64,000 nucleotides of DNA. Origin: a virus. The first letter of the stretch is position 1. Every line of letters starts with the position of its first letter. Where the stretch lies: the IMG/VR virus record IMGVR_UViG_3300024335_000010, positions 1-64,000 of that record; one strand, written 5' to 3'. Below are positions 23,633-38,420 of the stretch, in pieces. The notes under the pieces were generated by a model. It saw nothing but the letters and a program-made list of their open reading frames with translations, had not been told where the DNA came from and did not search any database. The translations under genes were made by a program, and so were the position numbers.

Positions 23633-24013
23633 ATGCCAACGTATGCACAGTTAAATACAAATGTAAGAAACCAATGTGGTCGACAATTAAGAACATTTGA
23701 TAGAACCGTAGGATTTTATATCAACGCTTATGTTAGAGGTTCTAACTGGGGAACAAGTTATACCAGAGGTCAATGGCATTATACGCGGTTTGAATACGTA
23801 AATGCAAACTACTATGTATATAACAATTATCTGGATAGCGGTATATACACTGGCGGAATTATTCGTTCTGGTGATGTTATTGATTCTATTCGTAGCGTTG
23901 TTCGTAGAACGGTTGATTTATGCGAAGGTAGAATATCTAACAGAACTATTAATGCATATTATTGCCACGCAAGTTGCCATTCTTCGTGTCATAGTTCGAG
24001 AGGGCGCCGCTAA
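23633..24013 (+). CDS. CHxS-tailed protein 1: putative radical SAM substrate / fibre-tip protein
   Basis: The protein has 126 residues. The core (about 17-105) is rich in Tyr, Arg and Asn, with RQLRTFDRTVGFYINAYVR and SYTRGQWHYTRFEYVNANYY. The C-terminal 18 residues are YYCHASCHSSCHSSRGRR, with Cys111, Cys115 and Cys119 each followed by His and Ser, then a basic end. It is about 60% identical by eye to the next gene, and the tail is almost unchanged. A leader-like core followed by a short Cys/His/Ser tail, next to several radical SAM genes, is the classic layout of a ribosomal peptide precursor. The His-x-Ser spacing recalls HxsA of the His-Xaa-Ser systems, but Cys is interleaved and homology is not shown. 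The position directly behind the long fibre gene also fits a tip adhesin. Function is inferred, not known. Confidence 0.85.
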   Translation: MPTYAQLNTNVRNQCGRQLRTFDRTVGFYINAYVRGSNWGTSYTRGQWHYTRFEYVNANYYVYNNYLDSGIYTGGIIRSGDVIDSIRSVVRRTVDLCEGRISNRTINAYYCHASCHSSCHSSRGRR

Positions 24014-24396
24014 TGACTATGGATAGAAATGACGTTAGGTCGTGGGTAAGAACATATAGTGGTCAACAATTAAGAACGTTCGATAGAACGGTTGGAATTT
24101 ATGTTAACGCATATGTAAGAGCTAGTAGTGCTGCTACCAGTTATACTAGAGGACAGTGGCATTACCATAGATTTGAATATGTTAATGCAAACTACTATGT
24201 ATATGATAACTATGTAGATGGTGGTATCAATAGTGGTAATATTATTTACGGACAGGATATTGTTGATACATTGGAAGATATAACTAGAAGAACAGTTGAT
24301 CTAATTGAAGGAAGAATGTCAAACAGAACTATTAACGCATACTATTGTCACGCAAGTTGTCATACTAGTTGCCACAGTTCGAGAGGAAGAAGATAA
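24013..24396 (+). CDS. CHxS-tailed protein 2: paralogue, putative radical SAM substrate
   Basis: The protein has 127 residues, and its start shares a base with the preceding stop (TAATG). Its only cysteines are the three in the tail (Cys112, 116, 120 in YYCHASCHTSCHSSRGRR), so any Cys-directed modification must be there. In the last 20 codons, ten differ silently from the paralogue (including all three Cys codons) and only one changes an amino acid (Ser to Thr). The tail is therefore held by selection, not by recent copying. The core keeps QLRTFDRTVG, TRGQWHYxRFEYVNANYYVY and RRTVDLxEGRxSNRTINAYY. The first radical SAM gene starts one base after its stop. Precursor or modified virion protein is the best guess. 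Confidence 0.85.
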   Translation: MTMDRNDVRSWVRTYSGQQLRTFDRTVGIYVNAYVRASSAATSYTRGQWHYHRFEYVNANYYVYDNYVDGGINSGNIIYGQDIVDTLEDITRRTVDLIEGRMSNRTINAYYCHASCHTSCHSSRGRR

Positions 24397-24397
24397 G

Positions 24398-25573
24398 ATG
24401 TCAATGCAAAAATCATATTGTAAGCAAATGCGGTACTCTGGTCCAGAAAGCCTAACACCGTCAGATGCTACTAAGTTTGATGTTCTAATTCAAATGGAAG
24501 TTTTAGCAGGATGTAATCACGGCTGCTTAGGTTGTTTCGTTGATAAAAACATAGACCCTGCTATGAACCAACAAATTATTGATAGAGCAAAAGAATTAGC
24601 AGATGGTGTAAAAAGAACTGGACTTAACTTAAGAGAGTTCGTTATTGGACCAACAGACTTTTTCACTGCTAAAAATACAGAGTCAGTATTAAATAATTCA
24701 GTAGTCCAAGAAATTATGAGAGAACATACTGGCGCTCGTATCGCGGCACCTGCTAAATTTGATTTGGCTACTATGGATAAAGTAAAAGAAATCTTTGCCG
24801 TACTTGATGATGAGGATAAGTATCGTCGCGAAATGATTATCGAATTTATTATGCCAATCGGTAGAGTAGATCAGATGTTAAACGATGACGAATATTTTAA
24901 TAACGTTATGGAAAAGGTAGAGTTCTTTAAAAATAATACACCAAAACAAATGGATTGGTCGTGGACATTACAGGCTTCTAACGTTGTTGGTAGAAAAATT
25001 GATAAAGAAACTTATAATAAAATTATTCAAAAATCTGTAAACGAATATGAAACAATTGTAGAAATGAACCCTGCTTTCTCTAGAGCCAATTCACAATTGA
25101 TACAAAGAAAGAATTTATTTGGTTGGAACGATTTCCTTGGTAGAGTTATTGATAAAGATAATGCGCAAGAAACCGTTATGTCAATGGCTAATCTTTATTG
25201 TAACTCAATTAACTTTGTTGGACTTACTATTGTCCCAGGAGAAAATGGTCCAACTACACACCTAAATGTAATGCTGCATGAGCAAGCGTTTTTCTTAGGT
25301 AATAAAAATTTAGATGTTACTGGTTTAACATTCGAGCAAATATTAGATCGTAAAAATGAACTAGTGACAAAAGGTATAAATAGGTCTAGTAAAGTAAAAG
25401 ATTGTGCTGACTGTAAATTTGCAGTTGCCTGTGCAAGCAGATTAATCTTTGAAGCCCAAGAATCATTAAACGTCAACGGTTGTGTATTGAACAAAGATGT
25501 CCTTGCAGAATATAACCCGTATGATTTTACTTGGAACGATGACGCAATAGAAAAATTAGGAGTAAGATCATGA
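24398..25573 (+). CDS. Radical SAM protein with C-terminal twitch-type cluster (plus-strand paralogue 1)
   Basis: The frame is open further upstream, but ATG 24398 is chosen: it follows the previous stop by one base and has GAGAGGAAG ahead of it. The enzyme has 391 residues. Cys39, Cys43 and Cys46 form the CxxxCxxC that binds the SAM-cleaving 4Fe-4S cluster (AGCNHGCLGCF). Where most family members have GGE, residues 84-87 read GPTD in VIGPTDFF. The C-terminus has C-x2-C-x5-C-x14-C-like spacing (Cys336, 339, 345 and a later Cys in NGC), as in a twitch or half-SPASM domain holding one auxiliary cluster. Such enzymes commonly modify peptides. Its substrates are probably the two CHxS proteins immediately upstream. 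The chemistry (thioether, epimer, C-C or C-N bond) cannot be predicted. Confidence 0.9.
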   Translation: MSMQKSYCKQMRYSGPESLTPSDATKFDVLIQMEVLAGCNHGCLGCFVDKNIDPAMNQQIIDRAKELADGVKRTGLNLREFVIGPTDFFTAKNTESVLNNSVVQEIMREHTGARIAAPAKFDLATMDKVKEIFAVLDDEDKYRREMIIEFIMPIGRVDQMLNDDEYFNNVMEKVEFFKNNTPKQMDWSWTLQASNVVGRKIDKETYNKIIQKSVNEYETIVEMNPAFSRANSQLIQRKNLFGWNDFLGRVIDKDNAQETVMSMANLYCNSINFVGLTIVPGENGPTTHLNVMLHEQAFFLGNKNLDVTGLTFEQILDRKNELVTKGINRSSKVKDCADCKFAVACASRLIFEAQESLNVNGCVLNKDVLAEYNPYDFTWNDDAIEKLGVRS

Positions 25574-26673
25574 TTGGGCAGAGTTTATATTACTTAAATA
25601 ATAAAAAGTATATTACGAATACACAAAACGTTGAAACAGTAATTGGTGAATTAAATTCTTTTTACCACACTGCTGAACCAAGACGAATTACTATTGTACA
25701 GCCTGACCTTGTAGACTCATTTCTTCAGCCTGCTGAGTATGAAGCGCTGGCAGAAGGTGCACGATCAGGCTCATCAGAACTATTAGATTTTGAAGAATGG
25801 GATACTATTGCCAATCCTACTTATATTCAAAATAGTGATAAGCGTATTCTTATGTTTACAGACGAAGAGGATATGATTAAAGTATTTGCAAAATATACTG
25901 CTGGTTTGTTAACATCATGTGGTTTTTATCCTGACGCAGATGCAACAACAATTAATGCGATGGTTGCTCATTATATGGAAGCAGTTATTAACCAAGATTT
26001 AGTATTATCTTTAATGAGCAACTCGACAGTTTATAACGATGTTAGAAACCATACAAATACTTTATTAAATGCTGAAGGCGAAACACCTTGGGTAATTACA
26101 TATCAGAATGGTAAAAACTTTAGTTATGACTTGCTATTCTTCTTAAACGATTTCTATTCATGTGCAGGCGTTTCAGAATTGATTGTTGAAAAATTTACTA
26201 TTCATTCACCAGTTATGGCAAAAGATGTTATGGAACACTTTACTTCACGTCGTCACTACTCGGCATATATTATGTCAGTTATTGATTATATGAATGCTAA
26301 TGCAACTGAAGAAAATGGCTGGGCTACAGATAAACAACAATTCTTTAAAGACGTATATGTAAATGCTGCTAATAAATCTAACTATACATTAGCGTTTTAT
26401 AAATTAGAAGAAATGTGGAATAAAGTTAAAGACGACGCTGCCTTTATAGCCGTTCATCAAAATAAAGCTGATACGACTGCTGACGGTTGGGAATACATGG
26501 ATTTATATACTGAAATCAATAACGTGTTCCCTATTGTTAAAAAAGTTTTAGAAAGAAACTTTAACACAGATAATATTAGAGAAGACTTGGCATTAATTAA
26601 CACAGATGTTCAGTTCTTTTCAAAACGTCAAAACAGAATTCCATATTTAATTCATAAATACCCATTGATATAA
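25570..26673 (+). CDS. Unknown protein encoded in the radical SAM operon (367 aa)
   Basis: The start overlaps the preceding stop as ATGA, so the two are translationally coupled. The protein has no CxxxCxxC, no signal peptide and no membrane span. It is acidic and predicted mostly helical in its second half (VMEHFTSRRHYSAYIMSVIDYMNAN), with a beta-like start (YYLNNKKYITNTQNVETVIGEL). I do not recognise a family. Its place between radical SAM genes suggests a substrate-binding partner, scaffold or chaperone for modification, by analogy with recognition proteins in peptide-modification clusters; no RRE/PqqD-like fold is evident by eye. It could instead be a virion protein. Confidence 0.8.
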   Translation: MIGQSLYYLNNKKYITNTQNVETVIGELNSFYHTAEPRRITIVQPDLVDSFLQPAEYEALAEGARSGSSELLDFEEWDTIANPTYIQNSDKRILMFTDEEDMIKVFAKYTAGLLTSCGFYPDADATTINAMVAHYMEAVINQDLVLSLMSNSTVYNDVRNHTNTLLNAEGETPWVITYQNGKNFSYDLLFFLNDFYSCAGVSELIVEKFTIHSPVMAKDVMEHFTSRRHYSAYIMSVIDYMNANATEENGWATDKQQFFKDVYVNAANKSNYTLAFYKLEEMWNKVKDDAAFIAVHQNKADTTADGWEYMDLYTEINNVFPIVKKVLERNFNTDNIREDLALINTDVQFFSKRQNRIPYLIHKYPLI

Positions 26674-26688
26674 GAAAGTGATTTTATT

Positions 26689-27525
26689 ATGAGTGAAGAG
26701 CAAACTTTATATACGCTGCCATTAGCACCGCAAAATTTAGTTGAAATATATAAATTAAAAGAAGACAACGAAAACTTTGTTTTATGGGTAGATTATTTAG
26801 CATCAAAAGAAAAGTTATCAGCCAAACATATTCTAATCTATTTGGCCAATACTAATTTTAAAACAACCTTTGCGCAGGTTGACGAAGAACTATTAATAGA
26901 ATATATTAAATCAGACTTTATCGTAGAAGCACCACTGCTATCACGGTTTGTTGTAATGGCAATCAAAGTAAGATACATGTATGAGTTTAATGGCTTAGAA
27001 GAACAATTACTTGGCCTCTTTAGTAAAGAACAATTGCACGACTTCGTAGACAAAAACTATGAACTTATAGAAGATGTTTGTAATGCAATGGCTGAACTTA
27101 TTCCATTCACACTCTGCAAATTTTACGAAAACTTATCAGATGAAAACAAAGCAATTGAAGTTGATGTAAAAGAAGCTGTTGAGCAAATTGAAGTAACTGA
27201 CAAGCCAGCAAATTGTGGTCCAAACGTTGCACGCCTTCTTATAGATGGCTGGGATGGTTTCCTATTAGTTTGTTCTATGCTTGGATTTAAACAAGAATAT
27301 AATAAACAGATGTATAATGATAAACCTGCATACTTTGGTAAAGATTTGTTTTTCTTATTGACACAAAGTAATATTACTAGTAACATTTTATCAATGATGC
27401 CTCCTGGGTTTATTAACAGCGTTGAAATTCCAAAACCAAAGTCTGATGAAGATTTACAAGCTGAAATCGAAGCAGAGGCTAAAGCCAATGCCGCTAGTGT
27501 AGCCGATGATAGTAAAACTGAATAA
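26689..27525 (+). CDS. Unknown protein encoded in the radical SAM operon (278 aa)
   Basis: This protein is mostly helical and acidic, with a charged, low-complexity C-terminal tail (about residues 240-278, rich in Glu, Ala and Lys) that looks disordered. It has no recognised catalytic motif. The gene overlaps the next radical SAM gene by 20 bases, and the ATG of that gene lies in a different frame inside its tail codons. Together with the 367-residue protein it is one of two non-radical-SAM partners in this half of the island. An adaptor or recognition role is possible but unsupported by a motif. Confidence 0.78.
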   Translation: MSEEQTLYTLPLAPQNLVEIYKLKEDNENFVLWVDYLASKEKLSAKHILIYLANTNFKTTFAQVDEELLIEYIKSDFIVEAPLLSRFVVMAIKVRYMYEFNGLEEQLLGLFSKEQLHDFVDKNYELIEDVCNAMAELIPFTLCKFYENLSDENKAIEVDVKEAVEQIEVTDKPANCGPNVARLLIDGWDGFLLVCSMLGFKQEYNKQMYNDKPAYFGKDLFFLLTQSNITSNILSMMPPGFINSVEIPKPKSDEDLQAEIEAEAKANAASVADDSKTE

Positions 27526-28528
27526 AACATATGCAGGTTATTATACGTATGATAAAGATAAGAGCCCTATTAATACAGACTTCTTACGTACTGAAATAAA
27601 CCTAGACATATTACATGGCTGCGCTCAGTCGTGCCCAGGATGTTTTATTCCACGTAAAAACCTTACTAAACCTGAATACTTAGAAACATTATACAATTTA
27701 TTAATGGACGGCGCATATTATCCTGACGAGATAACGATTGGACCTACTGACATTTTTGATGCAGAGAACTTCCATGAAATTATGAAACATCCATATATGA
27801 AAAAGCTTTACGAAATATCAGCAGTTGGATTTACATCAACATTACTTCAATCATATGCCGAGATAAGAACTAAACTTGATATGATATGGAGTTTATATGA
27901 AGGTGTTCATAGAGTACCTGATATTGATTTTAAAATCGTTTTAGATATAGACAAGTACCTTGATGGAGAACTAGACGATTGGAACCGTAAACTTAAAATG
28001 TTTGAGTTAGGTTCAGTTCAATTTAGAGTTAATTATCATAAAGATGTATTTAAGCGTATCACATATAACGACTTATGTCAACGGATATATGATGACTATA
28101 ATGCACCAGTTATAATTACACCGTCGTTTTTAACAGATAGGAACGCGCGTGGTAAAGTAGAACAACACCTTGCAAACTTTAGACGTGAAATGATTGAGCA
28201 AGATATTGATAAGAAATGGCTTAACCTTTATACATTTTTTGATGCAAAGTTTAATGGATATGGCTGCCAAAATTATAGCTTCTATAATAATAAACTATAT
28301 TTAAATCCATTCTTGTATGATGTTATTATTCAAAGAACTCCAAATTTTGAAACAACAATGGATGCGAATACTTTATATGAAAATATAGATTATGCTCAAC
28401 AGGTTGATGATTGTAATGGCTGCGAGTATATGATGAGTTGTGCTGAACGTAATATACATTTATATATGGAGTCGCGAGGATTAGATAGCTGCGTCGCATT
28501 AAAGGAATATATGTATGCCTCTGATTAA
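27506..28528 (+). CDS. Radical SAM protein with twitch-type C-terminus (plus-strand paralogue 2)
   Basis: The enzyme has 340 residues. Cys39, Cys43 and Cys46 (HGCAQSCPGCFIPR) bind the radical SAM cluster, at the same residue numbers as in paralogues 1, 4 and 5. The GGE site is replaced by IGPTDIF. The C-terminus has C-x2-C-x5-C-x16-C (DDCNGCEYMMSC ... DSC) for one auxiliary cluster. The mid-region PSFLTDRNA corresponds to the P-S-x-x-R-(S/A) element of its paralogues but lacks their Arg at the usual place, so this copy may differ in substrate handling. It overlaps both neighbours, so expression is coupled. Confidence 0.9.
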   Translation: MIVKLNKTYAGYYTYDKDKSPINTDFLRTEINLDILHGCAQSCPGCFIPRKNLTKPEYLETLYNLLMDGAYYPDEITIGPTDIFDAENFHEIMKHPYMKKLYEISAVGFTSTLLQSYAEIRTKLDMIWSLYEGVHRVPDIDFKIVLDIDKYLDGELDDWNRKLKMFELGSVQFRVNYHKDVFKRITYNDLCQRIYDDYNAPVIITPSFLTDRNARGKVEQHLANFRREMIEQDIDKKWLNLYTFFDAKFNGYGCQNYSFYNNKLYLNPFLYDVIIQRTPNFETTMDANTLYENIDYAQQVDDCNGCEYMMSCAERNIHLYMESRGLDSCVALKEYMYASD

Positions 28529-29672
28529 AAATAATCTCTATTATGAGATGACGACAGAGACCCAAACTAAGCCCGTCAGCGCTGTTAAAATTCAAATGGA
28601 TGTACTAGACGGTTGTCACCACAAGTGCCCTGGATGCTTTGTACATCGACGGGGTAACTCTAGTGATAAAAGCCAAGTATATATGGCAAAAGAGTTCATA
28701 CGTTCTATTACTGACCAAGGGATACTTGTTGATGAAATATTAATTGGTCCTACAGACTTTTTAGCATCAGAAAATTTCTATCAAGTAATGCCAGAACTCG
28801 TAGATATCATTAATGAAAACTCACCTATCCTAGCTTTTGTCTCTACTCTTATTGATGGTGATATTAAAAAGTTTTGCGATTTCCTTATTGATAATATTAA
28901 TTTAGATACTGAAATAGAAATTGGTATCGCTACAAATCCACATAAGTTTTTTACTGACGAATACACAAAACATATATCAGATATGTTAGCCTATATAGAT
29001 ACACACATTCAACATGAGGTTACTTATACGTTTGTTGTTAACATTAAAGATTATGGATTAGATTATGAGGCATTGCATGATCAGGCTGTAAAACGTTTTG
29101 ATACTATATTAGATTTTATTCCGTCAGTATCTCGTTCGCATAAAGCAAACATAATCTTAAAAACGCTTGATGAGTTTAACGAATACTTTAGCACATGGCA
29201 CCAAGAGTCCAAGCTAAACAATATTATGGTAGACCATTCTCACGCAGGTATTAATTACACTGTATTAAACTACAAACGCGGTGAATGGTATTTAAGTCCA
29301 TTTATGTATGAGAACATGGCGATATATGATGATATGTTTAAAGTCAAATCTTTTGATGATGTTGTTCCAATGGTTGAACATCAAATTAAAAGAGCAAAAG
29401 GTACTGAATGCGAGGATTGCCCATTATTCTTTAGTTGTTATAACAGAAAAATAATAATGTTAAGGGATTACCTTGGAGTAGACCGCTGCATAGCACCAAA
29501 AGAGAATATGCTAAATAATATAAACAATTATAATGGTCCTGCTCAGACAATGTATGGATGGGATGGTTATTCTGTTGAAAACGATAAGAACGGTTATCGT
29601 AAAAAGTTTTTAGTTACTGATGATGACGATCCAGAACTAAAACGATTAAAGGATATATCATATGTTAAATAA
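28515..29672 (+). CDS. Radical SAM protein with twitch-type C-terminus (plus-strand paralogue 3)
   Basis: ATG 28515 is preferred over 28548 because AAAGGA (about 28501-28506) is spaced correctly from it. The enzyme has 385 residues. Cys34, Cys38 and Cys41 (DGCHHKCPGCFVHRRGN) form the SAM cluster site, followed by LIGPTDFLASEN in place of a GGE motif. A conserved IPSVSRSHKAN lies about two thirds along. The C-terminal cluster is C-x2-C-x5-C (TECEDCPLFFSC) plus a later Cys (DRC). A tail of about 60 residues beyond the last Cys (ending in LKDISYVK) is longer than in its paralogues. It is in the same operon with overlapping starts and stops. Confidence 0.9.
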   Translation: MPLIKNNLYYEMTTETQTKPVSAVKIQMDVLDGCHHKCPGCFVHRRGNSSDKSQVYMAKEFIRSITDQGILVDEILIGPTDFLASENFYQVMPELVDIINENSPILAFVSTLIDGDIKKFCDFLIDNINLDTEIEIGIATNPHKFFTDEYTKHISDMLAYIDTHIQHEVTYTFVVNIKDYGLDYEALHDQAVKRFDTILDFIPSVSRSHKANIILKTLDEFNEYFSTWHQESKLNNIMVDHSHAGINYTVLNYKRGEWYLSPFMYENMAIYDDMFKVKSFDDVVPMVEHQIKRAKGTECEDCPLFFSCYNRKIIMLRDYLGVDRCIAPKENMLNNINNYNGPAQTMYGWDGYSVENDKNGYRKKFLVTDDDDPELKRLKDISYVK

Positions 29673-30816
29673 TGATTGGAAAAATATTGTAGACGGTGGG
29701 CGAGGTGAGGAATTTACTTCAATCGACAATATGAAAGAATATAAAATACAGGTCAACCTTGAAATACTCGAAGGTTGTTCATATATGTGTCCGGGTTGTT
29801 TTGTTAAACGTAAAGGTAATTGGAACCCAAACTCAATCGCAACATTTCATTCCTTGGCATTTGAATTAAAAGATAGAACTGATATTGTATTAGACGACAT
29901 TGTGATTGGCCCAACCGACTTTTATGGTGCTCAAAATTTAGAAGAGATTATTAATAATCAAAGGCTTGCTGATGCCATATCCATGATGCCTGAAGATAAT
30001 AGAAATATCCAACATAACTGTTCTATACTCGGATCATTATCTGAAAAAGATATTGAAGGTAAAATAAAAGCTATTGAAAACTCAATGCTAGGCGAAGTAG
30101 TCGAAGCATGGGATGTACAAATTGCTTTGGATTTAAATAGATTAATGAATGATCAGGTATACCTAGATGCACTTGATGAAAGAGTTGAAACATTTAAAAA
30201 TAGTTCTTTAAACTTTGAAATAAGTATGGCTACTAATATCGTGCAAGGTGTAGAAGATATATTATTTCCTGCTATTGAATTTGTTAGAGCTAGGTATGAA
30301 ACAGTAATCGAAGTATTACCGTCAGTAGTACGTTCTTTTAATCATAGCGCAAAGCACGGAGACAAACTATTTGAATGGAATGATATGTTAACTCGATTGG
30401 CTGCAGATCCACATAAGTTTAAAAACAAATTCCATTTCTTACAAGGTGACGTATCACATAAAGCGTTTCATTATTCTGTAGTTAGTATATACCACGGAGA
30501 TATGTATTTGTCGCCATTCATATATGAGAATGCTCAAATCCATACAGATGATTTTAAAGTTGATAATAGTTGGCTTTGGTTACCTGATGCCGATATTGTT
30601 GATTATATATTAAACAAAAAGAACGAGATTGTCAATAGCCAAATTGAAAAAAGTTCTGAAAAAGAGTGTGGCAGTTGTAAGTATTTAAATATATGTGCGA
30701 ATAGAATGGTTCCAATGATTATGGATACTGTGTTTGATGGAAGAAAAGAATGCATCTTAAATAAAGATGTAATTGGTTTATATGATGATGAGGTATACCA
30801 TGGGAATAGTTACTAA
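29662..30816 (+). CDS. Radical SAM protein with twitch-type C-terminus (plus-strand paralogue 4)
   Basis: The enzyme has 384 residues. Cys39, Cys43 and Cys46 (EGCSYMCPGCFVKRKGN) form the radical SAM site. The second strand ends VIGPTDFYGAQN, so GPTD again replaces GGE. LPSVVRSFNHS matches the P-S-x-x-R-S element. The C-terminal C-x2-C-x5-C (KECGSCKYLNIC) and a later Cys (KEC) would hold an auxiliary 4Fe-4S cluster. It starts 11 bases inside the end of the previous gene. Tandem paralogy with its neighbours suggests that successive duplications have specialised either for different residues of the three-Cys tail or for the two CHxS proteins. Confidence 0.9.
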   Translation: MLNNDWKNIVDGGRGEEFTSIDNMKEYKIQVNLEILEGCSYMCPGCFVKRKGNWNPNSIATFHSLAFELKDRTDIVLDDIVIGPTDFYGAQNLEEIINNQRLADAISMMPEDNRNIQHNCSILGSLSEKDIEGKIKAIENSMLGEVVEAWDVQIALDLNRLMNDQVYLDALDERVETFKNSSLNFEISMATNIVQGVEDILFPAIEFVRARYETVIEVLPSVVRSFNHSAKHGDKLFEWNDMLTRLAADPHKFKNKFHFLQGDVSHKAFHYSVVSIYHGDMYLSPFIYENAQIHTDDFKVDNSWLWLPDADIVDYILNKKNEIVNSQIEKSSEKECGSCKYLNICANRMVPMIMDTVFDGRKECILNKDVIGLYDDEVYHGNSY

Positions 30817-31828
30817 CAATAAGCGTGCTGCACAAGCTGATAAAGATTTTGATTTATCCTTTAGTGAAGGACATGAAATCAAAGTACAATTTAATTGCGA
30901 AGTATTATCTGGCTGCGAGTTTAAATGTAAAGGTTGTTTTGTCAATAAACTCGGATCAAATATGGGATCATTTGATAGATTAAACAACGCCATTGATTTA
31001 TTTAATACCAATGGCTATCGCGTGTCAACCATTAATATTGGTCCAACTGATTTATTTGGTAATAATAATATCACCGAGTTGTTGAAAGACGAAACATTCC
31101 GAGAGTGTTTAAGTAAAGTAACTACTATTCAATTCGTTACAACATTAGAAAAGATTGATTTTAATATTATTGAAATGCTGAATAGTATTCCAAAGGCCGA
31201 GGGATTTATGTATGATTGTAACATAGCCCTGCAGCCGCCAGTTAATTGGAATGTACTTGAATATAAATTAGGAATATTAAATGAGTTGACAGATGATTTA
31301 AATTATTATATGGTATATAATATGGGTAATGATGATGTTGAGAATAATAAAGTACTCGAGATGTCAAAACTTGTTGAGGAACGGTTTGATTCTATACTTA
31401 CTTTAAATCCATCATTCTTCCGAGCACCTAAATCTAAAGTGCAAAAGCATCTTATTGAGAAATGGAAAAACTATGACTTTGCCGACGACCTTATGCCTAA
31501 AACATTTATTGACCAAGCACAAGGTGGTTCTTTAGAATTAAATTATACTTATTGTAACGAACGTTTCTTTTGGACACCATTCGTATATGATATTGCTTTA
31601 ATTGGTACAGATAATTTTGTGGTCAAAGATGAAAACGATATTGAGTCATGGACTCAAGTAAAAGAAAATAAGTTTATGTCACAGTTGACTTATTCAAGTG
31701 AAACTGACAATTGTGCTTCTTGTAAAAATTTAATGACATGTATTGATAAAGGTGTCCTATCTTATATGGAACACCATTCACTTACTGCGTGTGTGTTTCC
31801 GGGAGTGATAACGTCCGATAAAGGTTGA
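30800..31828 (+). CDS. Radical SAM protein with twitch-type C-terminus (plus-strand paralogue 5)
   Basis: The ATG at 30800 is chosen over an upstream in-frame start at 30773 because TGAGGT lies about seven bases before it, and because this places the cluster cysteines at 39, 43 and 46 as in the paralogues. The enzyme has 342 residues: SGCEFKCKGCFVNK, then NIGPTDLFGNNN, NPSFFRAPKSK, and a C-terminal C-x2-C-x5-C (DNCASCKNLMTC) plus Cys in LTAC. The last 51 bases overlap the 3' end of the converging minus-strand gene at 31778. No terminator is visible after it. Confidence 0.9.
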   Translation: MGIVTNNKRAAQADKDFDLSFSEGHEIKVQFNCEVLSGCEFKCKGCFVNKLGSNMGSFDRLNNAIDLFNTNGYRVSTINIGPTDLFGNNNITELLKDETFRECLSKVTTIQFVTTLEKIDFNIIEMLNSIPKAEGFMYDCNIALQPPVNWNVLEYKLGILNELTDDLNYYMVYNMGNDDVENNKVLEMSKLVEERFDSILTLNPSFFRAPKSKVQKHLIEKWKNYDFADDLMPKTFIDQAQGGSLELNYTYCNERFFWTPFVYDIALIGTDNFVVKDENDIESWTQVKENKFMSQLTYSSETDNCASCKNLMTCIDKGVLSYMEHHSLTACVFPGVITSDKG

Positions 31829-32497
31829 TGGATATACGTGTTGTATTCTATGCCATTTCTCTTTTGATTCTACCTCATGCATTTTAATATCAAGTTCCAT
31901 TTCGTGCATTGGGTATATTGACATTAAAGGCGTACCATATTTAAGTGTAACAGTATATTCTTCGTCTTTAATTGGAAACGCTAAGAATACGTTTAATGTG
32001 TGTTGGTCATAAAAGTTTGTAATCCCAGGTGATATTAAAATATCGTGCTTACGCAAATCCTCACTATAATGGCATTCAGTAATCATAAACTCTTTACGTT
32101 CGCTTGCCTTAACAGCCCAAGGTCCATGTAATTTAAATACAGTTCTATTTGGATATAATGTATCGCCAAATTGTTTACGTTCATGTTGAGATCCATCAAG
32201 TTGACCAGAATTATGTAATGGCTCAATGCACTCAACATTGCCATTTGGTTTTACTCTAAAAATACCATCTGACCACAATTTAAGAACGATAGGCTTACGC
32301 ATATAATCAACAATTCCTGGGCATGTTTTAATCGTCGGAGTTGGAACGTTAACGCCAACCCTAGACCTAAATTGGTCATACGAATTCTTAATAGATTTCC
32401 ACCACGTTGGTGGCTTAGTTCTGGCTTTAATTGGTTGTAAGTCTACAAGTGTTTGGTGTGCTGTGTAAAAATCAAGTTTAAGTTTTTTCTTTATCAT
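31778..32497 (-). CDS. Conserved phage protein of unknown function, last gene of minus-strand radical SAM operon
   Basis: The protein has 239 residues, with AGGA nine bases before the ATG. It contains no Cys cluster. The sequence is a mixed beta protein with W- and P-rich segments: TKPPTWWKSIKNSY, then TIKTCPGIVDYMRKPIVLKLWSDG. I have seen proteins of this general look in marine T4-like phages but cannot name the family. It overlaps the preceding radical SAM gene by 20 bases, and its 3' end overlaps the converging plus-strand radical SAM gene by 51 bases. It may be a partner of the modification enzymes or an unrelated passenger. Confidence 0.8.
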   Translation of the reverse strand: MIKKKLKLDFYTAHQTLVDLQPIKARTKPPTWWKSIKNSYDQFRSRVGVNVPTPTIKTCPGIVDYMRKPIVLKLWSDGIFRVKPNGNVECIEPLHNSGQLDGSQHERKQFGDTLYPNRTVFKLHGPWAVKASERKEFMITECHYSEDLRKHDILISPGITNFYDQHTLNVFLAFPIKDEEYTVTLKYGTPLMSIYPMHEMELDIKMHEVESKEKWHRIQHVYPSTFIGRYHSRKHTRSK

Positions 32498-33554
32498 AAT
32501 TAAATCCTGTTATCAAATTTTGACCTGTTTTGTCCATATAATTAAACCACATTCTCATTATGCAGTCAGGTAAATCGCGTTCTCTGTTTTTCCAATCCCA
32601 TTGTGTATAGCAGCGGAAACCACATTTATTCCACCACTTACAAGATAAGCAACCATTCTCGTCCATATAGGCTTGCATCATTCCGGCGTTATCTTTAGGT
32701 TTGTATTCTGTATTAAAATCTCGTTGATCGTATCTATCCCACCGACAATTTGATGTAGAATTATCTGGGAATATCGTAACCTTGTTTAAAGCCAAGCAAT
32801 GCATATGGTTACTCTCATTATATATGAGATCTTTAATAGGGTTAATGTCAGGATAGTGATGGTATACAAATTTTAAAAACTCGAGGTACTCACTATCTGA
32901 TGGAATCATATAATCATATCCACGATCTGGAATATAATCATCAAAGTAAAATTCATCAAACTTTTCATATAAGTAATGGAAATACTCATCGTCGTCTGCC
33001 ATAAACTTTTTGATTGACAAAGTAGTAGCAACCATATTAATAGATATGATATAATCAGCAAAGTATTCTATATTTTTAGCGTATGGACCTTTTGTTGGTC
33101 GCCCGTCAAAATCGTATGAACATATAATATAGGAAGGGATAGCTTCAGCGTTTAAGTCGTCGAGTAGTCGCTGAACTCTATCTCGTTTACTGAATTGAAA
33201 CGATGTTACCCATACAACTTTAATCTTTTGTTTATGTTCATCAAATATCTTTTTGATTGCTACTAAAAAATCAAAGTAAACAGGGTAAGCCCATTCTGAT
33301 ATTCTATCTTGGAATAACTCGCCACCAACCATATTGATTTGTATTATATCAACTCTGCCTTTCATCTTAATGACATGTTGTTCAACCAAATCTAATTTAG
33401 AAAATATCTCTTCCCTGCTCAAACCTACGGTAGATTTTTTATCGTGGTGACAGAACGAACAATTGAGATGACAGTTTTCAAATAAAGTCAACTCAATCTC
33501 GGCTATATCCGGACGTTTAGTTTCTAATAGTGTTTTTGTTATTTCAAAGTCCAA
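32478..33554 (-). CDS. Radical SAM/SPASM protein (minus-strand enzyme D)
   Basis: No in-frame ATG lies before the catalytic cysteines. TTG 33554 is chosen because AAAGAGG sits about nine bases upstream; another TTG at 33602 has no ribosome site. From 33554 the product has 358 residues. Cys28, Cys32 and Cys35 (ENCHLNCSFCHH) bind the SAM cluster, followed by MVGGELF, a true GGE motif. The C-terminal half carries a full SPASM pattern: an early Cys pair around HCLALN...SNC, then C-x2-C-x5-C-x3-C (CLSCKWWNKCGFRC) and a last Cys (LPDC), for two auxiliary clusters. SPASM enzymes typically modify ribosomal peptides or protein side chains. It is unlike the GPTD paralogues on the plus strand. Confidence 0.88.
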   Translation of the reverse strand: MDFEITKTLLETKRPDIAEIELTLFENCHLNCSFCHHDKKSTVGLSREEIFSKLDLVEQHVIKMKGRVDIIQINMVGGELFQDRISEWAYPVYFDFLVAIKKIFDEHKQKIKVVWVTSFQFSKRDRVQRLLDDLNAEAIPSYIICSYDFDGRPTKGPYAKNIEYFADYIISINMVATTLSIKKFMADDDEYFHYLYEKFDEFYFDDYIPDRGYDYMIPSDSEYLEFLKFVYHHYPDINPIKDLIYNESNHMHCLALNKVTIFPDNSTSNCRWDRYDQRDFNTEYKPKDNAGMMQAYMDENGCLSCKWWNKCGFRCYTQWDWKNRERDLPDCIMRMWFNYMDKTGQNLITGFNYDKEKT

Positions 33555-33942
33555 ATAACATTTCCTCTTTATAGTATTCGTATATGTCAGGTACCATACC
33601 AAGTTTTTCGTTAAAGTCTAATTTAAATAATATTTCGTCATATGTATCTTTGTCTTGCCAATATGGAACAAAGTGTGGATCGTTATTAAACAATAAAGCT
33701 TCGTCATTAAGCGCATCAAAGAATGGTTCTTTAAAATCTCTGTTTAACCAATGCGCATAACATATCGCAACCACATATGATTTTGCAGGATAAATCCATT
33801 CGTCAACATATTCTCTGAAATGTATAAGAGCATAATCAACAATATTATCTGGCTGCCAATTAATTTCTACGTCAGTCAGATCATCTTTAAACAACGATGC
33901 CGTTAAATGATATGCGCTTTGCCTAGCTTTCCATTCTTTCAT
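33544..33942 (-). CDS. Unknown 132-residue protein between two radical SAM genes
   Basis: This is an acidic, aromatic-rich protein (many Tyr, Trp, Phe and Asp) with no cysteine clusters and no membrane segment. Its start overlaps the end of the preceding radical SAM gene by 20 bases, and its end overlaps the next by about 11, so it belongs to the operon. Size and position would suit a peptide-recognition partner, but no RRE/PqqD signature can be read by eye. A substrate role is less likely because it lacks an obvious core peptide. Confidence 0.72.
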   Translation of the reverse strand: MKEWKARQSAYHLTASLFKDDLTDVEINWQPDNIVDYALIHFREYVDEWIYPAKSYVVAICYAHWLNRDFKEPFFDALNDEALLFNNDPHFVPYWQDKDTYDEILFKLDFNEKLGMVPDIYEYYKEEMLFGL

Positions 33943-34837
33943 AATAATCTAATAACCCTTTATATCCATTACAACTATTGGTTAAGTCGTGTACATACCG
34001 ATAATGTTCTGTTAAACATTTCCCATAATAAGAACATGCCTTACATATATCGCTCAAATTATTCTCAGGTTCTTCACGTGCCCACGTTAAATATTCATGG
34101 TAAGTGTCGTACTCTTTAAAGTATTCTCTATCATATTTATCAAATTCCAAGACGCCAAATTTTCCACGTGGCGTTATGTAAACGTGGTCATTACTAAAAG
34201 CATCATACTTACCTTCTATGCTATTGTATATATTATCAATGTTTTGGAAATTAAAATTCTTTTCTGTATTTGCTTCATCAAACTTAATAACGAAATCTTC
34301 AAAGTCTTTATGTGTTACATTATGTTGGTTTGCTTGATTAATTGAATATGGTTTAATTTCAACTGACTGAACATTAGAAATCATATTAAGCGTAAAGATC
34401 ATAAACTCTACATCCATCTCTAATACTTTTGGCGAGGCTAATATCAATACAGATAAATCTTTATTGGCATTCATCATGTTATTTAAAATGTGCTGCTCTT
34501 TTTCTCTGGCATGGAAATCATATGATACGGATAACGTTACATCCTCATCTCTAAAAAAGTCAGGGAATGCCGATAAGTTAGTATTGATATTAATAGGACC
34601 TTTATAATGATTGCGTATTACTTTCTTTAATGAATAATAATATTCTGGCGATAGTAAACCAATCTCTCCACCATATAAATCAACATGACCAACCTTGTCA
34701 GTAATTTGTTGTAGGCTGTTTTCTAACCATAAAGGAGTAATTTTATGTCTATCGTTTAATTGCTCTGTAGTTAAATAACAGAAATCACAAGCAAAGTTAC
34801 AATAGTATGTTGGATTAATTGATAGATTCATTAACAT
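33923..34837 (-). CDS. Radical SAM protein with twitch-type C-terminus (minus-strand enzyme C)
   Basis: The enzyme has 304 residues. Cys13, Cys17 and Cys20 (YYCNFACDFCYL) form the SAM cluster site, and YGGEIGLL is the GGE motif. The C-terminus has C-x2-C-x5-C (DICKACSYYGKC) and a later Cys (NSC), enough for one auxiliary cluster. It is the smallest of the four minus-strand enzymes. It overlaps both neighbouring genes, so the set is translationally coupled. Substrate unknown. Confidence 0.9.
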   Translation of the reverse strand: MLMNLSINPTYYCNFACDFCYLTTEQLNDRHKITPLWLENSLQQITDKVGHVDLYGGEIGLLSPEYYYSLKKVIRNHYKGPININTNLSAFPDFFRDEDVTLSVSYDFHAREKEQHILNNMMNANKDLSVLILASPKVLEMDVEFMIFTLNMISNVQSVEIKPYSINQANQHNVTHKDFEDFVIKFDEANTEKNFNFQNIDNIYNSIEGKYDAFSNDHVYITPRGKFGVLEFDKYDREYFKEYDTYHEYLTWAREEPENNLSDICKACSYYGKCLTEHYRYVHDLTNSCNGYKGLLDYYERMES

Positions 34838-35855
34838 AAGGTGTCGCCAATCCCGGATCCATTCCGTTTATTTCAAGTATTCTTGGTGCTAGTTTTTTCA
34901 TATGATAACAATGATCCTCAGCTTGACCTTCGCGTTTCATATCACGTACAGTTTTCTTACAACCATTACATATATCAAACATTGGACATGTATAACAAGC
35001 CATTTTCATTGTCTGTATATTAGGATCATTCTGCAATGGTGTCTGCATTTCACCATTCATCTCTTCTTCAAAATTAATAGGGTAATCGTAATCGTCAGCA
35101 AACGAACCACAAGAATAGTAATCACCACCCGGATTAAATGCACGAATACCACTATCGCATTGCCTATTCTGTGGGCAAGAGGTGTAACTATTTTTATTTA
35201 ATCTTACCATCATTTGTTTAGTATTGTGTTCATATTCTGCTAAGCCCATATCATATATCTTTATATAGGTTTCGTATATTTTACTTAGCCTAAACGTAGA
35301 ACCTTGTACGCCAGAAGCCATAGCGTAATTAAGTTTACATTCAACTCCCATTTCTTTAGCAAGCTCTACATTTTTAATTGCATCATCAAAGTTTTCATCA
35401 ACGATTACAGAAATAAAACTTGGACGTTCACCAGTATGTTTTAACATAGCATCTGATACCCGCCAAAAATCTTTTTCAGTAAACTCAGAGTAATCACCTT
35501 TTAATCTTCCACCACCATATTGAAATGATGTAGTACATCCAAATCTTTCGTGTTTAAATAAAGGTAACCATTTCTCTGGTCTAATAAGGAATGGCCAAAG
35601 ATTTGATGTAAAACTAATTGATGCAGGGTAATCGTGTTCGTCAAGGTGAGCAATCAAATCCCAATACCATTTTGGATCAACCATTAACGGATCACCACCA
35701 TTTACAATAATCGTATTGGTGTCAGGATAGCGTTTTAGAAATTTATAAACATATTCTAAATCAAGTAAACCAGCCTTATCAGCATCAATATCAGTTGATG
35801 AACAGAAGGTACACTTGAAATTACAAGCCTCTGTTGGTTTAATAATTAAATCCAT
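34815..35855 (-). CDS. Radical SAM/SPASM protein (minus-strand enzyme B)
   Basis: The enzyme has 346 residues. Cys11, Cys15 and Cys18 (EACNFKCTFCSS) bind the SAM cluster, and NGGDPLM corresponds to the GGE motif with Asp instead of Glu. A SPASM-type C-terminus is clear: CDSGIRAFNPGGDYYSC, then ACYTCPMFDICNGC and a last Cys in DHC. This is the arrangement of peptide-maturing and sulfatase-maturing enzymes with two auxiliary clusters. It overlaps the upstream enzyme by 10 bases. Confidence 0.92.
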   Translation of the reverse strand: MDLIIKPTEACNFKCTFCSSTDIDADKAGLLDLEYVYKFLKRYPDTNTIIVNGGDPLMVDPKWYWDLIAHLDEHDYPASISFTSNLWPFLIRPEKWLPLFKHERFGCTTSFQYGGGRLKGDYSEFTEKDFWRVSDAMLKHTGERPSFISVIVDENFDDAIKNVELAKEMGVECKLNYAMASGVQGSTFRLSKIYETYIKIYDMGLAEYEHNTKQMMVRLNKNSYTSCPQNRQCDSGIRAFNPGGDYYSCGSFADDYDYPINFEEEMNGEMQTPLQNDPNIQTMKMACYTCPMFDICNGCKKTVRDMKREGQAEDHCYHMKKLAPRILEINGMDPGLATPYVNESIN

Positions 35856-36874
35856 CCCTTATCCTTTGCAAGTTTCATCATTAATGTTTTAGGTGCTGGG
35901 CAAACATCTTCCATCCATTGAAGTTGGTGACAATCAGAATGGCAATATATAAACACAGGACAATCATAACAGCGTGGATCTCTTTCGTGCATTTCACATG
36001 ATATAACTTCCATACGTTTTGGCGATTGACGAACTTCTTTTGCAGGAGTATCAATAGTACCATACCATTGAGTTGGTGCAGTGTTAGGACAACCGGCTAC
36101 AGTCCCATCGGCATTGATGGTATGTAATTTTTGTTCGCAGTCTCTACAAAAAGTTCCGTTAAAAAATTGTCCTTTACTAAACTTATCATAAACAGAACCA
36201 AGAAACGCATTGGCTACAGGATGGTCTTGTGTAGTTTCGTGCATCTTCATCCAAAAGGCATCTAACTCACTGTTATGCGGAAAAATATCTAAGTTAATTG
36301 TTGCATTACCATCATGTGTTAAACGCTCATAGTTTATACACTCAACACCTAATGAATGCATATAGTCAGCTATTTCAAGCGGATCCATTTTAACTACATC
36401 TTTTGAGACTGATATAAAACATTTAACAAAACATCCTTCGTCAACTAAACGTTTTACATTGTCTTCCCATAGTTTACGCTGCTTTTCGTTAGAGAACCTA
36501 ATGTTTGGATCCCAAGATGTGCCTACAGAACCACCATCTAATAATTTTAAAAACTCAAGTCTTTCATCAGTAAGTTTATAAACCAAATTAGTTGTAATAC
36601 CATGCGTACATCGGTCACCCCAATGTTCTTTAGTAATATTATAAAACTTCATTAGGTCTGCCATAGGTGCTAATAAAGGTTCACCACCGTGGTATTCAAA
36701 ATGTATTTCGTTTGTACCATCACACAACTCATTACACCACTTAGCAGTCTTTTCAGCATCAAAGTAGATTTTTCTACCGTTAATACCAGACGTAAAGCAG
36801 TGTGCGCAATTAAGATTGCAGGTTTCAGTCGTTTTTACGTATACGAGTAAGTGTTTCTGTATCGCCAATGCCAT
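35846..36874 (-). CDS. Radical SAM/SPASM protein, anSME-like (minus-strand enzyme A)
   Basis: The enzyme has 342 residues. Cys19, Cys23 and Cys26 (ETCNLNCAHCFT) form the SAM site, and YHGGEPLL is a textbook GGE motif. The C-terminal SPASM set is complete: a Cys before INADGTVAGC, then C-x2-C-x5-C-x3-C (CYDCPVFIYCHSDC) and a final Cys (DVC). This is the overall layout of anaerobic sulfatase-maturating and peptide-modifying enzymes. The start overlaps the end of the cupin-like gene by 50 bases, and no ribosome site is obvious, so translation may depend on coupling. Confidence 0.92.
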   Translation of the reverse strand: MALAIQKHLLVYVKTTETCNLNCAHCFTSGINGRKIYFDAEKTAKWCNELCDGTNEIHFEYHGGEPLLAPMADLMKFYNITKEHWGDRCTHGITTNLVYKLTDERLEFLKLLDGGSVGTSWDPNIRFSNEKQRKLWEDNVKRLVDEGCFVKCFISVSKDVVKMDPLEIADYMHSLGVECINYERLTHDGNATINLDIFPHNSELDAFWMKMHETTQDHPVANAFLGSVYDKFSKGQFFNGTFCRDCEQKLHTINADGTVAGCPNTAPTQWYGTIDTPAKEVRQSPKRMEVISCEMHERDPRCYDCPVFIYCHSDCHQLQWMEDVCPAPKTLMMKLAKDKGWI

Positions 36875-37295
36875 ATGAGATCATCAATGCCTTTTCATAA
36901 TTAAGTGCTCTGTGTTTAGTATTTTTAGCAATACCAATTTTGTCGCGAGGTCCTAGTGTATATTCTTTACCATCTATTTCTAAAGTCTTTTTACCGGCTA
37001 TGCACTCTATTAAAATATCTATAGGATCCGTGTGAGTATCAAACGATGGACCATTGTCATTGTTATAGAAGATGTGTGCAGTTCCAGCTATATGTGGAAA
37101 CCATTGCTCGGCTTGTTCTACTTTAATCGTAGCTTTGTTTGCTAATAAAATTGTAATAGCACCAAGGTAAGAAATGTATTCTGAATGTTCTAAATAATGT
37201 TGATTGCCGTTATTATCTATATGAGATACATCATGGTTCTCAAAGCATTCTTCTGTCATTAACCAGTTTTCAAATTCTTCAAATGTTTCTATCAT
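36825..37295 (-). CDS. Cupin/JmjC-like Fe(II) oxygenase-type protein, first gene of minus-strand radical SAM operon
   Basis: The protein has 156 residues. The central part reads as a cupin barrel: FDTHTDPIDI supplies an H-x-D pair, a G-rich turn and KTLEIDGKEY follow, and TKHRALN supplies a distal His. This is the 2-His-1-carboxylate layout of JmjC/cupin dioxygenases. It lacks the N-terminal helical bulk of larger protein hydroxylases, so it may be a small oxygenase or only a sugar-binding cupin. It heads an operon of four radical SAM enzymes and could act on the same substrate. An early-type promoter and an overlapping TATAAATA lie just upstream (37326-37359). Confidence 0.75.
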   Translation of the reverse strand: MIETFEEFENWLMTEECFENHDVSHIDNNGNQHYLEHSEYISYLGAITILLANKATIKVEQAEQWFPHIAGTAHIFYNNDNGPSFDTHTDPIDILIECIAGKKTLEIDGKEYTLGPRDKIGIAKNTKHRALNYEKALMISYGIGDTETLTRIRKND

Positions 37296-37325
37296 AATGT
37301 AGTTCCAATGGTAATATACGATATG

Positions 37326-37333
37326 TATTTATA
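37326..37333 (-). promoter_or_regulatory. T4-type late promoter on the minus strand (TATAAATA)
   Basis: On the minus strand TATAAATA spans 37333 to 37326, 30 bases before the cupin-like gene start. It shares three bases with the sigma70-type -10 box next to it, so the operon may be transcribed both early and late. An exact match in this AT-rich gap could be chance, but position and direction are right. Confidence 0.5.
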
Positions 37334-37359
37334 ATACCACAAAGAAGCGAATATGTCAA
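37331..37359 (-). promoter_or_regulatory. Sigma70-type early promoter for the minus-strand radical SAM operon
   Basis: Reading the minus strand, TTGACA (37359-37354) and TATTAT (37336-37331) are 17 bp apart, with TGG just before the -10 box (extended -10). The cupin-like gene starts about 35 bases downstream. It is nearly the same as the early promoters at 61-64 kb. Confidence 0.75.
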
Positions 37360-37371
37360 CCAGTTATATGT

Positions 37372-37379
37372 TATAAATA
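37372..37379 (+). promoter_or_regulatory. T4-type late promoter (TATAAATA)
   Basis: An exact TATAAATA on the plus strand lies 26 bases before the oxygenase ATG and back to back with the minus-strand promoters of the radical SAM operon. The gap 37296-37405 is therefore a divergent control region. Confidence 0.72.
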
Positions 37380-37405
37380 GATTCATATATTATGGAGATT
37401 GTGTT

Positions 37406-37969
37406 ATGGAATTTAAAGAAATGTGGCCAACAAAGATTGGCTCAGGAAAATTTGATACTGATGGATTAATAGAATATATTTTTACTAACTATGATTTAAA
37501 TAACATGGAAGGTGAAGTAAACGGTGGAAATATATTCAAAGATAATTCAGATGAAATGAATAAATTTAAAGACATGGTATATAGCAACTTTGATCGCTAT
37601 CTCTATGCAAGCATTGGAAAACATATTACAGATTATAAAGCGCACGAGATGAAAGCGTGGATTACTGGTCATGGAAAAGATTATAACATGACTATACATA
37701 ATCACTCAGGTGCTCATTTGTCTGGTGTATTTTATATACTAGCTGAAGACCAAAACTCTGGTGGCGATATTGTTTTTTCAGATCCAAGAACAAACGCAAA
37801 TCGTGGCTACGATGATTGGTGGAACGATGTATTTGATAAAAAAGCAATCACACCAAAAACTGGAGATTTTATGATATTTCCAAGCTTTACATACCACCAC
37901 GTCAATCCTTATTATTCTAGTCTTAGAATATGTGTACCGGTTGACTTATATTTGTATCGCGGTGGGTAA
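37406..37969 (+). CDS. 2-oxoglutarate/Fe(II)-dependent oxygenase, phage type
   Basis: The protein has 187 residues, with GGAG about ten bases before the ATG. It carries the layout of the phage/prokaryotic 2OG-Fe(II) oxygenase family (TIGR02466-like): HNHSGAHLSGVFYIL with the first His ligand, GGDIVFSDPR, then GDFMIFPSFTYHHVNPYYSSLR, giving the distal His and the Arg that binds 2-oxoglutarate. Such genes are common beside structural genes in marine T4-like phages; substrates are mostly unknown, with protein hydroxylation proposed. It has its own late promoter and is followed by a second one. Confidence 0.85.
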   Translation: MEFKEMWPTKIGSGKFDTDGLIEYIFTNYDLNNMEGEVNGGNIFKDNSDEMNKFKDMVYSNFDRYLYASIGKHITDYKAHEMKAWITGHGKDYNMTIHNHSGAHLSGVFYILAEDQNSGGDIVFSDPRTNANRGYDDWWNDVFDKKAITPKTGDFMIFPSFTYHHVNPYYSSLRICVPVDLYLYRGG

Positions 37970-37979: not shown

Positions 37980-38038
37980 GAACTATAAATTAAAAGAGTG
38001 TAAGATGAATCAAACACTATAATTAAATGGAGACAATA

Positions 38039-38416: not shown

Positions 38417-38420
38417 GAGT

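Follow-up and report, generated by a model that had tools for sequence, protein, structure and literature searches.

A multi-enzyme radical-SAM module linked to a C-terminal CHxS tail on fibre-associated phage proteins and present in some Bdellovibrionota

Several described systems come close to the gene cluster considered here. The His-Xaa-Ser (Hxs) system of Haft and Basu combines a His-x-Ser product motif with paired radical S-adenosylmethionine (SAM) enzymes (PMC9062424, cited from the part of its text available to us). Among phages, the Aeromonas giant phage 332-Vera has eight radical-SAM genes within its structural-gene cluster, an arrangement called "highly unusual" in the accessible sections of its 2025 description, where phage DT01 is named among the two genomes most similar to 332-Vera (PMC12390700). 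Radical-SAM cassettes are mentioned in passing for the host-recognition islands of pelagimyophages (PMC7029224, partial text), and radical-SAM genes are annotated, as far as the available texts go, in FLC6 (PMC8066314), SURPRISE13 (PMC11898562) and RP12/RP31 (PMC5468394). The term "radical SAM" is absent from a jumbo-phage survey (PMC7824862) and a Sinorhizobium phage paper (PMC11242549). Here we analyse a 64,000-nucleotide stretch (the window) of the IMG/VR virus record IMGVR_UViG_3300024335_000010, which comes from a marine phage; the stretch is nearly all of a record of 64,102 bases. Positions 23633-37295 hold nine radical-SAM-type genes, genes for a cupin and for four unknown proteins, and two genes whose products end in CHxSCHxSCHxSRGRR, and the gene set extends past 37295 to 37969 through a 2-oxoglutarate- and iron-dependent (2OG-Fe) oxygenase. 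We propose that this module is probably a multi-enzyme pathway that modifies the C-terminal tail of fibre-associated host-contact proteins, and that it is shared with some Bdellovibrionota.

A sequence-only reading of the window had described these genes as overlapping members of two converging operons in a T4-like phage, with CxxxCxxC and C-terminal Cys clusters in all nine enzymes, and our analysis agrees. The cupin, the four unknowns and the two CHxS-tailed proteins are open frames, as is every other gene at the coordinates listed below, and a motif check finds both Cys features in each of the nine enzymes. The plus-strand run (S1, S2, R1, U1, U2, R2, R3, R4, R5) and the minus-strand run (CUP, R9, R8, R7, U4, R6, U3) converge at 31778-31828, and neighbours mostly overlap or touch. 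The structural genes of the window are T4-like (terminase, tail-sheath stabiliser, scaffold and several large fibres), and the nearest relatives of the terminase in a named-phage collection are Sinorhizobium phages phiN3 and phiM12 (57%). The module lies between a 2,798-aa fibre on one side and later structural genes on the other. All nine enzymes are under purifying selection, with ratios of nonsynonymous to synonymous substitution of 0.03-0.08 relative to the contig of L006/L264. The fibre, the tail proteins, the core components and the oxygenases are:

15235-23631, plus strand: FIB, 2,798-aa tail fibre ending one base upstream of S1; relatives also have its C-terminal domain upstream of the tail gene
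23633-24013, plus strand: S1, substrate candidate, 126 aa, C-terminus CHASCHSSCHSSRGRR
23963-24010, plus strand: CHxS tail of S1, 16 residues (motif scan)
24013-24396, plus strand: S2, substrate candidate, 127 aa, C-terminus CHASCHTSCHSSRGRR
24346-24393, plus strand: CHxS tail of S2, 16 residues (motif scan)
26689-27525, plus strand: U2, core component, 278 aa, no recognised fold
32478-33602, minus strand: R6, core radical-SAM enzyme with GGE (PHROG 1802, motif)
33544-33942, minus strand: U4, core unknown, 132 aa, PHROG 20737 (E 8e-33)
33923-34837, minus strand: R7, core radical-SAM enzyme (Pfam, motif)
34815-35855, minus strand: R8, core and most conserved radical-SAM/SPASM-type enzyme (Pfam, relatives)
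35846-36874, minus strand: R9, core radical-SAM/SPASM-type enzyme, adjoining the tail protein in many other phages (Pfam)
36825-37295, minus strand: CUP, cupin (HxD...H triad)
37406-37969, plus strand: OG, 2OG-Fe(II) oxygenase (PF13759, E 5.6e-14), beyond 37295

S1 and S2 are 67% identical over the whole proteins, their tails are alike at 15 of 16 residues, and the tail motif matches the window twice against 0.00 matches expected. Because the tail proteins of cultured phages share little with S2 beyond the tail, and a tblastn search of named phages with S2 returned no match up to E 0.1, the search was turned to the tail alone. The viral motif scan listed 120 stretches, so that counts drawn from it are at least those given here; 137 of the 142 listed matches, or 115 of 120 loci, finish exactly at a stop codon. 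Since the search pattern itself fixes the Cys, His and Arg residues of the tail, the real test lies in the unforced positions and the stop. Among 157 C-terminal matches, the three unforced Ser positions hold Ser in 91, 78 and 90% and the Gly position holds Gly in 91%, whereas in 65 matches that are not C-terminal these figures fall to 8, 8 and 9% and to 3%. Chance viral matches (L026, L061, L075, L078), a tail cut by the end of its stretch (L136) and a chance match with no family (L153) were left out before counting; the 72 matches in L101-L228 that do not end at a stop are L136 and 71 in genome contigs. The loci are not independent lineages, and several may lie on one contig (e.g., L001, L021, L262).

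The 144 distinct tail proteins carry 76 different tails. With the tail removed, they fall into groups of 90, 39, 3, 2, 2 and 2 proteins plus six singles, and these groups have no similarity to one another at E 1e-3. One tail on unrelated scaffolds is what would be expected if the enzymes read the tail. A minus-strand tail protein in L052, which lies with low-scoring module genes, has four repeats (CHSNCHSNCHSNCHTNRSRR); judging from this sequence, repeat number can vary.

The tail and the enzymes are linked in both directions. Ten close IMG/VR relatives carry both tail genes and, within the reach of each stretch, enzymes of the same kinds; L005, L007 and L008 are without R2, R4 and R5 and have every gene on a single strand, and L009 has two R5 genes. 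Going from tail to enzymes, R-family genes occur in 73 of 76 loci in the L021-L100 series, and the exceptions (L049, L053, L099) have R8 elsewhere on the contig. The common order here is CUP-R9-tail-R6-R8-R7-U4, accompanied by oxygenases. In L101-L140 the count is 35 of 39; of the four other loci, three span 1.1-2.4 kb each, and R8 occurs on the contig of the remaining one, L131. Going from enzymes to tail, we took the best 80 of 327 R8 relatives and searched their contigs with a pattern consisting of the last repeat and the stop. Where R8 was no closer than 10 kb to either contig end, the tail was present in 18 of 18 contigs; with limits of 8 kb and 5 kb the counts were 22 of 23 and 27 of 32, and the whole set of 80, many of them short, gave 29. 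A reversed-pattern control found nothing in the 80 contigs, and all 27 tails read in fetched stretches had three repeats, although the pattern covers one.

The linkage extends to cultured jumbo phages: FLC6, SURPRISE13, Atu_ph07, Phosso and DT01 each encode CUP, R9, a tail protein, U2, R6, R8, R7 and U4, with virion genes near the module. The U4 relative of Atu_ph07 (L017:7662-8084) is separated from the other module genes by about 5 kb and is on the opposite strand, and is still kept. Two tandem dihydrofolate reductase-like genes lie inside the modules of the Burkholderia phages FLC6 (L016:14216-15429) and SURPRISE13 (L020:14001-15178).

We also observed an association with fibre genes. The C-terminal 299 aa of FIB match the PHROG tail fibre family 19602 (E 1e-10), and a 43-row profile built from the C-termini of these same loci places this domain upstream of the tail gene, at a distance under 200 bp, in all 24 window-type loci with an upstream open reading frame (ORF). 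The larger scaffold group, group A, has the domain within 6 kb in 36 loci out of 81, and the other groups have it in 2 of 8; 19 loci had no upstream ORF. The tail protein of Atu_ph07 is gp170. According to the accessible part of the Atu_ph07 study, most virion proteins detected by mass spectrometry are encoded by coding sequences (CDS) 31-76, 170-215 and 284-329 (PMC6102473). CDS 170 is the tail protein if the CDS and gp numbering agree, as they do for the tail sheath, gp140, and gp170 itself is likely to be among the detected virion proteins listed there.

The module is also found on bacterial chromosomes. The motif occurs in 88 genome loci; it is C-terminal in 17 of them, and 15 of these 17 have module genes. 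Nine of the 15 belong to Bdellovibrionota, by record title or because they were drawn in that phylum; the other six are metagenome-bin contigs of 12-92 kb, which may be phage DNA, and the fibre domain of the phages is present as well on two of these bin contigs (L200, L227). A U2 profile was positive in 15 of 290 Bdellovibrionota genomes, eight of which were already known from the motif scan. The bacterial core enzymes lie on chromosomal contigs, one of 4.15 Mb, beside Rieske and cytochrome b genes, and a tail protein is present in all 11 bacterial stretches (L228, L249-L258), with three plain repeats in five. Nine of these stretches (L228, L249-L254, L256, L257) encode, in the same stretch as the module, a prepilin-like protein with Peptidase_S74, a phage fibre chaperone domain. 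S74 was confirmed in 9 of 9 ORFs tested; the Pfam prepilin motif exceeded its cut-off in five, and four were prepilin-like by eye. From their sequences, these genes look like a phage-type fibre borne on a pilus. The 184-209 aa "tip" proteins encoded beside them resemble the phage fibre C-terminal domain by eye, but the profile comparison gave 4.9% probability and we do not propose homology. In a tree of R8, all but one of the 11 Bdellovibrionota rows cluster together among phage rows (92/96, just under the tree's star); in a quick, unfinished R6 tree with long branches, the Bdellovibrionota rows are not grouped. An extra radical-SAM protein with a weak B12-binding match lies beside the module in a member of the Halobacteriovoraceae (L250:16572-18311), and a similar ORF follows R6 in L256, by eye.

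The assignment of the enzymes is firmest for the core. R6-R9 combine CxxxCxxC with GGE or GGD and have profile support. In a Pfam search, R8 exceeded the cut-off and R7 (E 1e-5) and R9 (2e-5) came near it; R6 was weak in Pfam (0.007), yet matched PHROG 1802, "radical SAM", at 2.7e-19. The R6, R7 and R9 profiles each align with the R8 profile at 97-99% probability. Scores for SPASM were near but under the cut-off (TIGR04085, 25.7 bits for R9 and 22.3 for R8 against 27; PF13186, 16.6 bits for R9 against 21.5), and for this reason R8 and R9 are called no more than SPASM-type. In NCBIfam, the best match of R9 is DarE, with DynA, HxsB and PapB lower down, and the best matches of R8 are DynA and a sulfatase maturase; all are far under cut-off, as are weak, generic matches to NrdG and MoaA models. 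R8, with 327 relatives found in viral contigs, has as its nearest solved structure an anaerobic sulfatase-maturating enzyme (anSME; E 6e-8, profile positions 2-321 of 344), a type of enzyme that oxidises a protein Cys or Ser. R8 was rejected as an anaerobic sulfatase maturase itself, with 41.8 bits against the TIGR03942 cut-off of 349.45 and no sulfatase recognised here. Single-sequence searches of solved structures with R9 and R7 gave no match.

The remaining genes of the module are the five plus-strand enzymes and two unknowns:

24398-25573, plus strand: R1, divergent radical-SAM-type, GPTD subfamily (Pfam, motif, profile comparison)
25570-26673, plus strand: U1, unknown, 367 aa
27506-28528, plus strand: R2, divergent radical-SAM-type (motif, profile comparison)
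28515-29672, plus strand: R3, divergent radical-SAM-type (PF04055 0.0029, motif, profile comparison)
29662-30816, plus strand: R4, divergent radical-SAM-type (motif, profile comparison)
30800-31828, plus strand: R5, divergent radical-SAM-type (motif, profile comparison)
31778-32497, minus strand: U3, unknown, 239 aa, PHROG 7084

CxxxCxxC is present in 115 of 116 R1-R5 family members of at least 270 aa. Where GGE is usual, 95 of these 115 have a GPTD-like motif, six have GGE or GGD and 14 have neither. A profile of this family (114 rows) aligns with R6 at 93% probability (E 2.5e-7), R7 at 88.5% and R9 at 82%, whereas three control families gave 0.1-0.2%; against solved structures it had no significant match. 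By these comparisons, R1-R5 form a divergent subfamily of the radical-SAM type.

Among the other components, U2 has 113 matches in 111 loci after an iterated profile search, including four cultured phages and five Bdellovibrionota loci, and it adjoins the tail protein in the core order in both phages and Bdellovibrionota. Its matches among viral structures (RSF1, Atu_ph07 and uncultured phages) include none with a function. U1 was seen only with window-type modules (18 loci) and matches no family above cut-off; profile searches gave no link between U1 and a 345-355 aa protein similarly placed in jumbo phages and Bdellovibrionota. U3 was seen in some window-type relatives only. The CUP triad (H88, D90, H128) is invariant in 8 of 8 aligned rows, which makes CUP a probable Fe-dependent oxygenase, and relatives of OG lie inside the module in 15 of 76 loci elsewhere. 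OG is followed, at 38027-41058, by the genes of a DUF7936 protein and its small neighbour and by two large ORFs with no Pfam or PHROG match. Elsewhere in the window, 4018-8718 encodes a collagen-repeat tail fibre with nine collagen stretches and Peptidase_S74 near its end.

These results support the proposal of the sequence-only reading that the genes form a peptide- or protein-modification system acting on the CHxS proteins, given the linkage in both directions and its recurrence in distant phages and Bdellovibrionota. Related phages that keep the enzymes and have lost the CHxS genes were not seen among contigs with enough flanking DNA, and the same gene set is found in metagenomic phage contigs, so it is not peculiar to this phage. 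Profile searches recover the radical-SAM family, weakly for R1-R5. The remark that no described phage system with nine such genes was known should be read beside the eight reported in the available text on 332-Vera. Compared with clusters for RiPPs (ribosomally synthesised and post-translationally modified peptides), the module is not a classic small-peptide cluster, because the tail ends a protein of 126-127 aa next to a fibre gene.

Several observations weigh against a pathway that modifies the tails of fibre-associated proteins. In group A, the fibre domain is missing from 8 loci whose upstream DNA exceeds 6 kb and from 16 with 2-6 kb; a further 21 without it have less than 2 kb. Six bacterial stretches (L251-L255, L257) have changed or fewer repeats (e.g., CHGNFPPPCHGSRGRR), and no prepilin-S74 gene was noticed in two of the 11 wider stretches (L255, L258). 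A protein on a 5,408-base contig of a 1.0-Mb bin (L187) ends in CHSSCHGSCHGSRTRR with no module gene on the contig, and its genome gave no U2 match. The radical-SAM assignment is also uneven: with PF04055, R3 scored 0.003 and R1 0.034, R2, R4 and R5 were not listed, and the R1-R5 profile aligned with R8 at 5.5% probability. No NCBIfam maturase model was matched near its cut-off. Neither a protease nor, in general scans made with no dedicated profile search for it, a RiPP recognition element (RRE) domain was recognised among the module genes of the window.

The S2 model (a helix, two strands, a long helix and the tail; mean pLDDT, the predicted local distance difference test score, 77.7) had no usable match, with a best E of 0.7 against the PDB in Foldseek and a best Z of 3.0 in VIA (root mean square deviation [rmsd] 6.9 over 72 residues). 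The U2 model (pLDDT 92) likewise gave a best PDB match of E 0.89 in Foldseek and a best Z of 3.2 in VIA (rmsd 2.8 over 57 residues), nothing usable. Because the models match no solved structure well, the predicted folds of S2 and U2 support no role, a further point against the proposed pathway; such poor matches do not show that either fold is new.

Three other explanations were weighed against a tail-modifying pathway. The tail might chiefly be a metal-binding tip, in which Cys and His residues of several chains hold iron or zinc and the enzymes act elsewhere or prime the site. The T4 long-fibre needle has His-x-His iron sites, CHxS repeats could provide ligands, and in window-type loci fibre genes adjoin that of the tail protein; His and Cys are also invariant among the matches, but the pattern forces both. 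We consider this explanation quite improbable, as it accounts neither for several radical-SAM enzymes and oxygenases that travel with the tail in both directions nor for Ser at the unforced positions. Alternatively, the tail could be cleaved off to give a free, small modified peptide; such a true RiPP would serve as a toxin against competitors or as a signal, with the folded domain as its leader. The maturases of antibacterial peptides DarE and DynA are the best NCBIfam matches of R9 and R8, and processing could take place at the Arg-rich end. In L249, profiled at 1890-3662 and 18975-19754 only, ABC-transporter gene(s) adjoin the module (1890-5283) and a trypsin-like gene lies beyond it (18975-19754), an arrangement that would suit a secreted peptide too and is a point against the fibre-associated pathway. 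The window module itself has no recognised exporter or protease, in Atu_ph07 a gene run rich in virion proteins starts with the tail gene, and the fibre domain is directly upstream in every window-type locus with an upstream ORF; on balance, release of a peptide seems unlikely.

A role of the enzymes in host metabolism during infection, such as cofactor or nucleotide chemistry, with the tail genes as passengers, would fit the NrdG and MoaA model matches and the two dihydrofolate reductase genes inside the FLC6 and SURPRISE13 modules. Those model matches are generic and far under cut-off, and the tail-enzyme linkage persists in distant phages and on bacterial chromosomes, which makes this role very improbable. 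Enzymes and tail that recur together in distant phages and Bdellovibrio relatives, often near fibre genes, instead suggest that they probably build a modified part for attachment.

In the tail-modifying pathway that we favour, S1 and S2 would be made as folded domains bearing the 16-residue tail CHxSCHxSCHxSRGRR. R9, R6, R8 and R7, with the iron oxygenases CUP and OG, would cross-link or oxidise Cys, His and Ser residues within the repeats. U2 and U4 would most likely present the substrate or help folding, and R1-R5 would be additional enzymes of this pathway, specific to certain lineages. Once mature, the protein would join a host-contact structure beside the tail fibre, and some Bdellovibrionota would carry this same device on a fibre resembling a pilus. 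The chemistry is the least certain step. The maturase-like matches and the anSME relative would fit a ring, a thioether or an oxidised Ser per repeat, without choosing among them; that each CHxS repeat acquires one ring or thioether, for example from His or Cys to the Ser two or three residues on, is a tentative and rather doubtful suggestion.

If this explanation is correct, part of a virus particle has side chains rebuilt by radical chemistry, which would widen both the biology of phage adsorption and the range of known protein modifications. To our knowledge, a chemically armed adhesin has not been described as a virion part. In the literature searched, which left most subscription journals and all preprints outside it and was available in part, we found no description of the tail, its substrate role or a bacterial counterpart. 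The module in Bdellovibrio relatives would suggest that two unrelated attackers of Gram-negative bacteria share one chemical tool. More specifically, phages and some Bdellovibrionota could share a radical-SAM and iron-oxygenase chemistry that makes a rigid, cross-linked or reactive (aldehyde, thioether) fibre tip for gripping Gram-negative surfaces, a possibility to which we give somewhat less than an even chance. As Atu_ph07 (on Agrobacterium tumefaciens C58) and Phosso (on Sinorhizobium meliloti) are cultured carriers, mass spectrometry of their virions can address the question directly. The C-terminal CHxSCHxSCHxSRGRR also offers a simple signature for naming hypothetical phage proteins.

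Comparison with known systems would place the module within a familiar class. The MAT fibres of Bdellovibrio are phage-fibre-like adhesins used on prey, 13 of 21 with S74 in the accessible part of their description (PMC10769870), in whose text "pilin" and "radical SAM" do not occur; unlike them, the bacterial proteins found here join a prepilin-like start to S74 and lie beside radical-SAM enzymes. DT01, close to 332-Vera, carries the module, and the available text on 332-Vera gives no substrate, tail or function (PMC12390700); likewise, the pelagimyophage account, in the sections accessible, describes neither a substrate nor a system (PMC7029224). Like the Hxs system, the module combines His-x-Ser in the product with radical-SAM enzymes; unlike it, the tail has a Cys before each His and an RGRR end. 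Identity with the Hxs system was rejected on scores (R9, 31.0 bits against the HxsB cut-off of 370; R8, 23.2 against 267.9 for HxsC). No Hxs model matched S1, U3 and U4 (E to 10) or S2, U1 and U2 (E to 1) in a library whose inclusion of HxsA and HxsD models is unconfirmed. The nearest solved relative of R8, anSME, aligns over nearly its full length. In radical-SAM maturation of RiPPs such as ranthipeptides, darobactin and dynobactin, radical-SAM/SPASM-type enzymes are likewise encoded next to a ribosomally made product whose C-terminus bears a repeated motif. The tail described here is core-like, yet it ends a viral protein of 126-127 aa with a predicted structure beside a fibre gene, and four core radical-SAM families occur together. 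The module would be of a known kind, in which radical-SAM enzymes mature a ribosomal product, but with a new substrate, a new setting and a new enzyme set.

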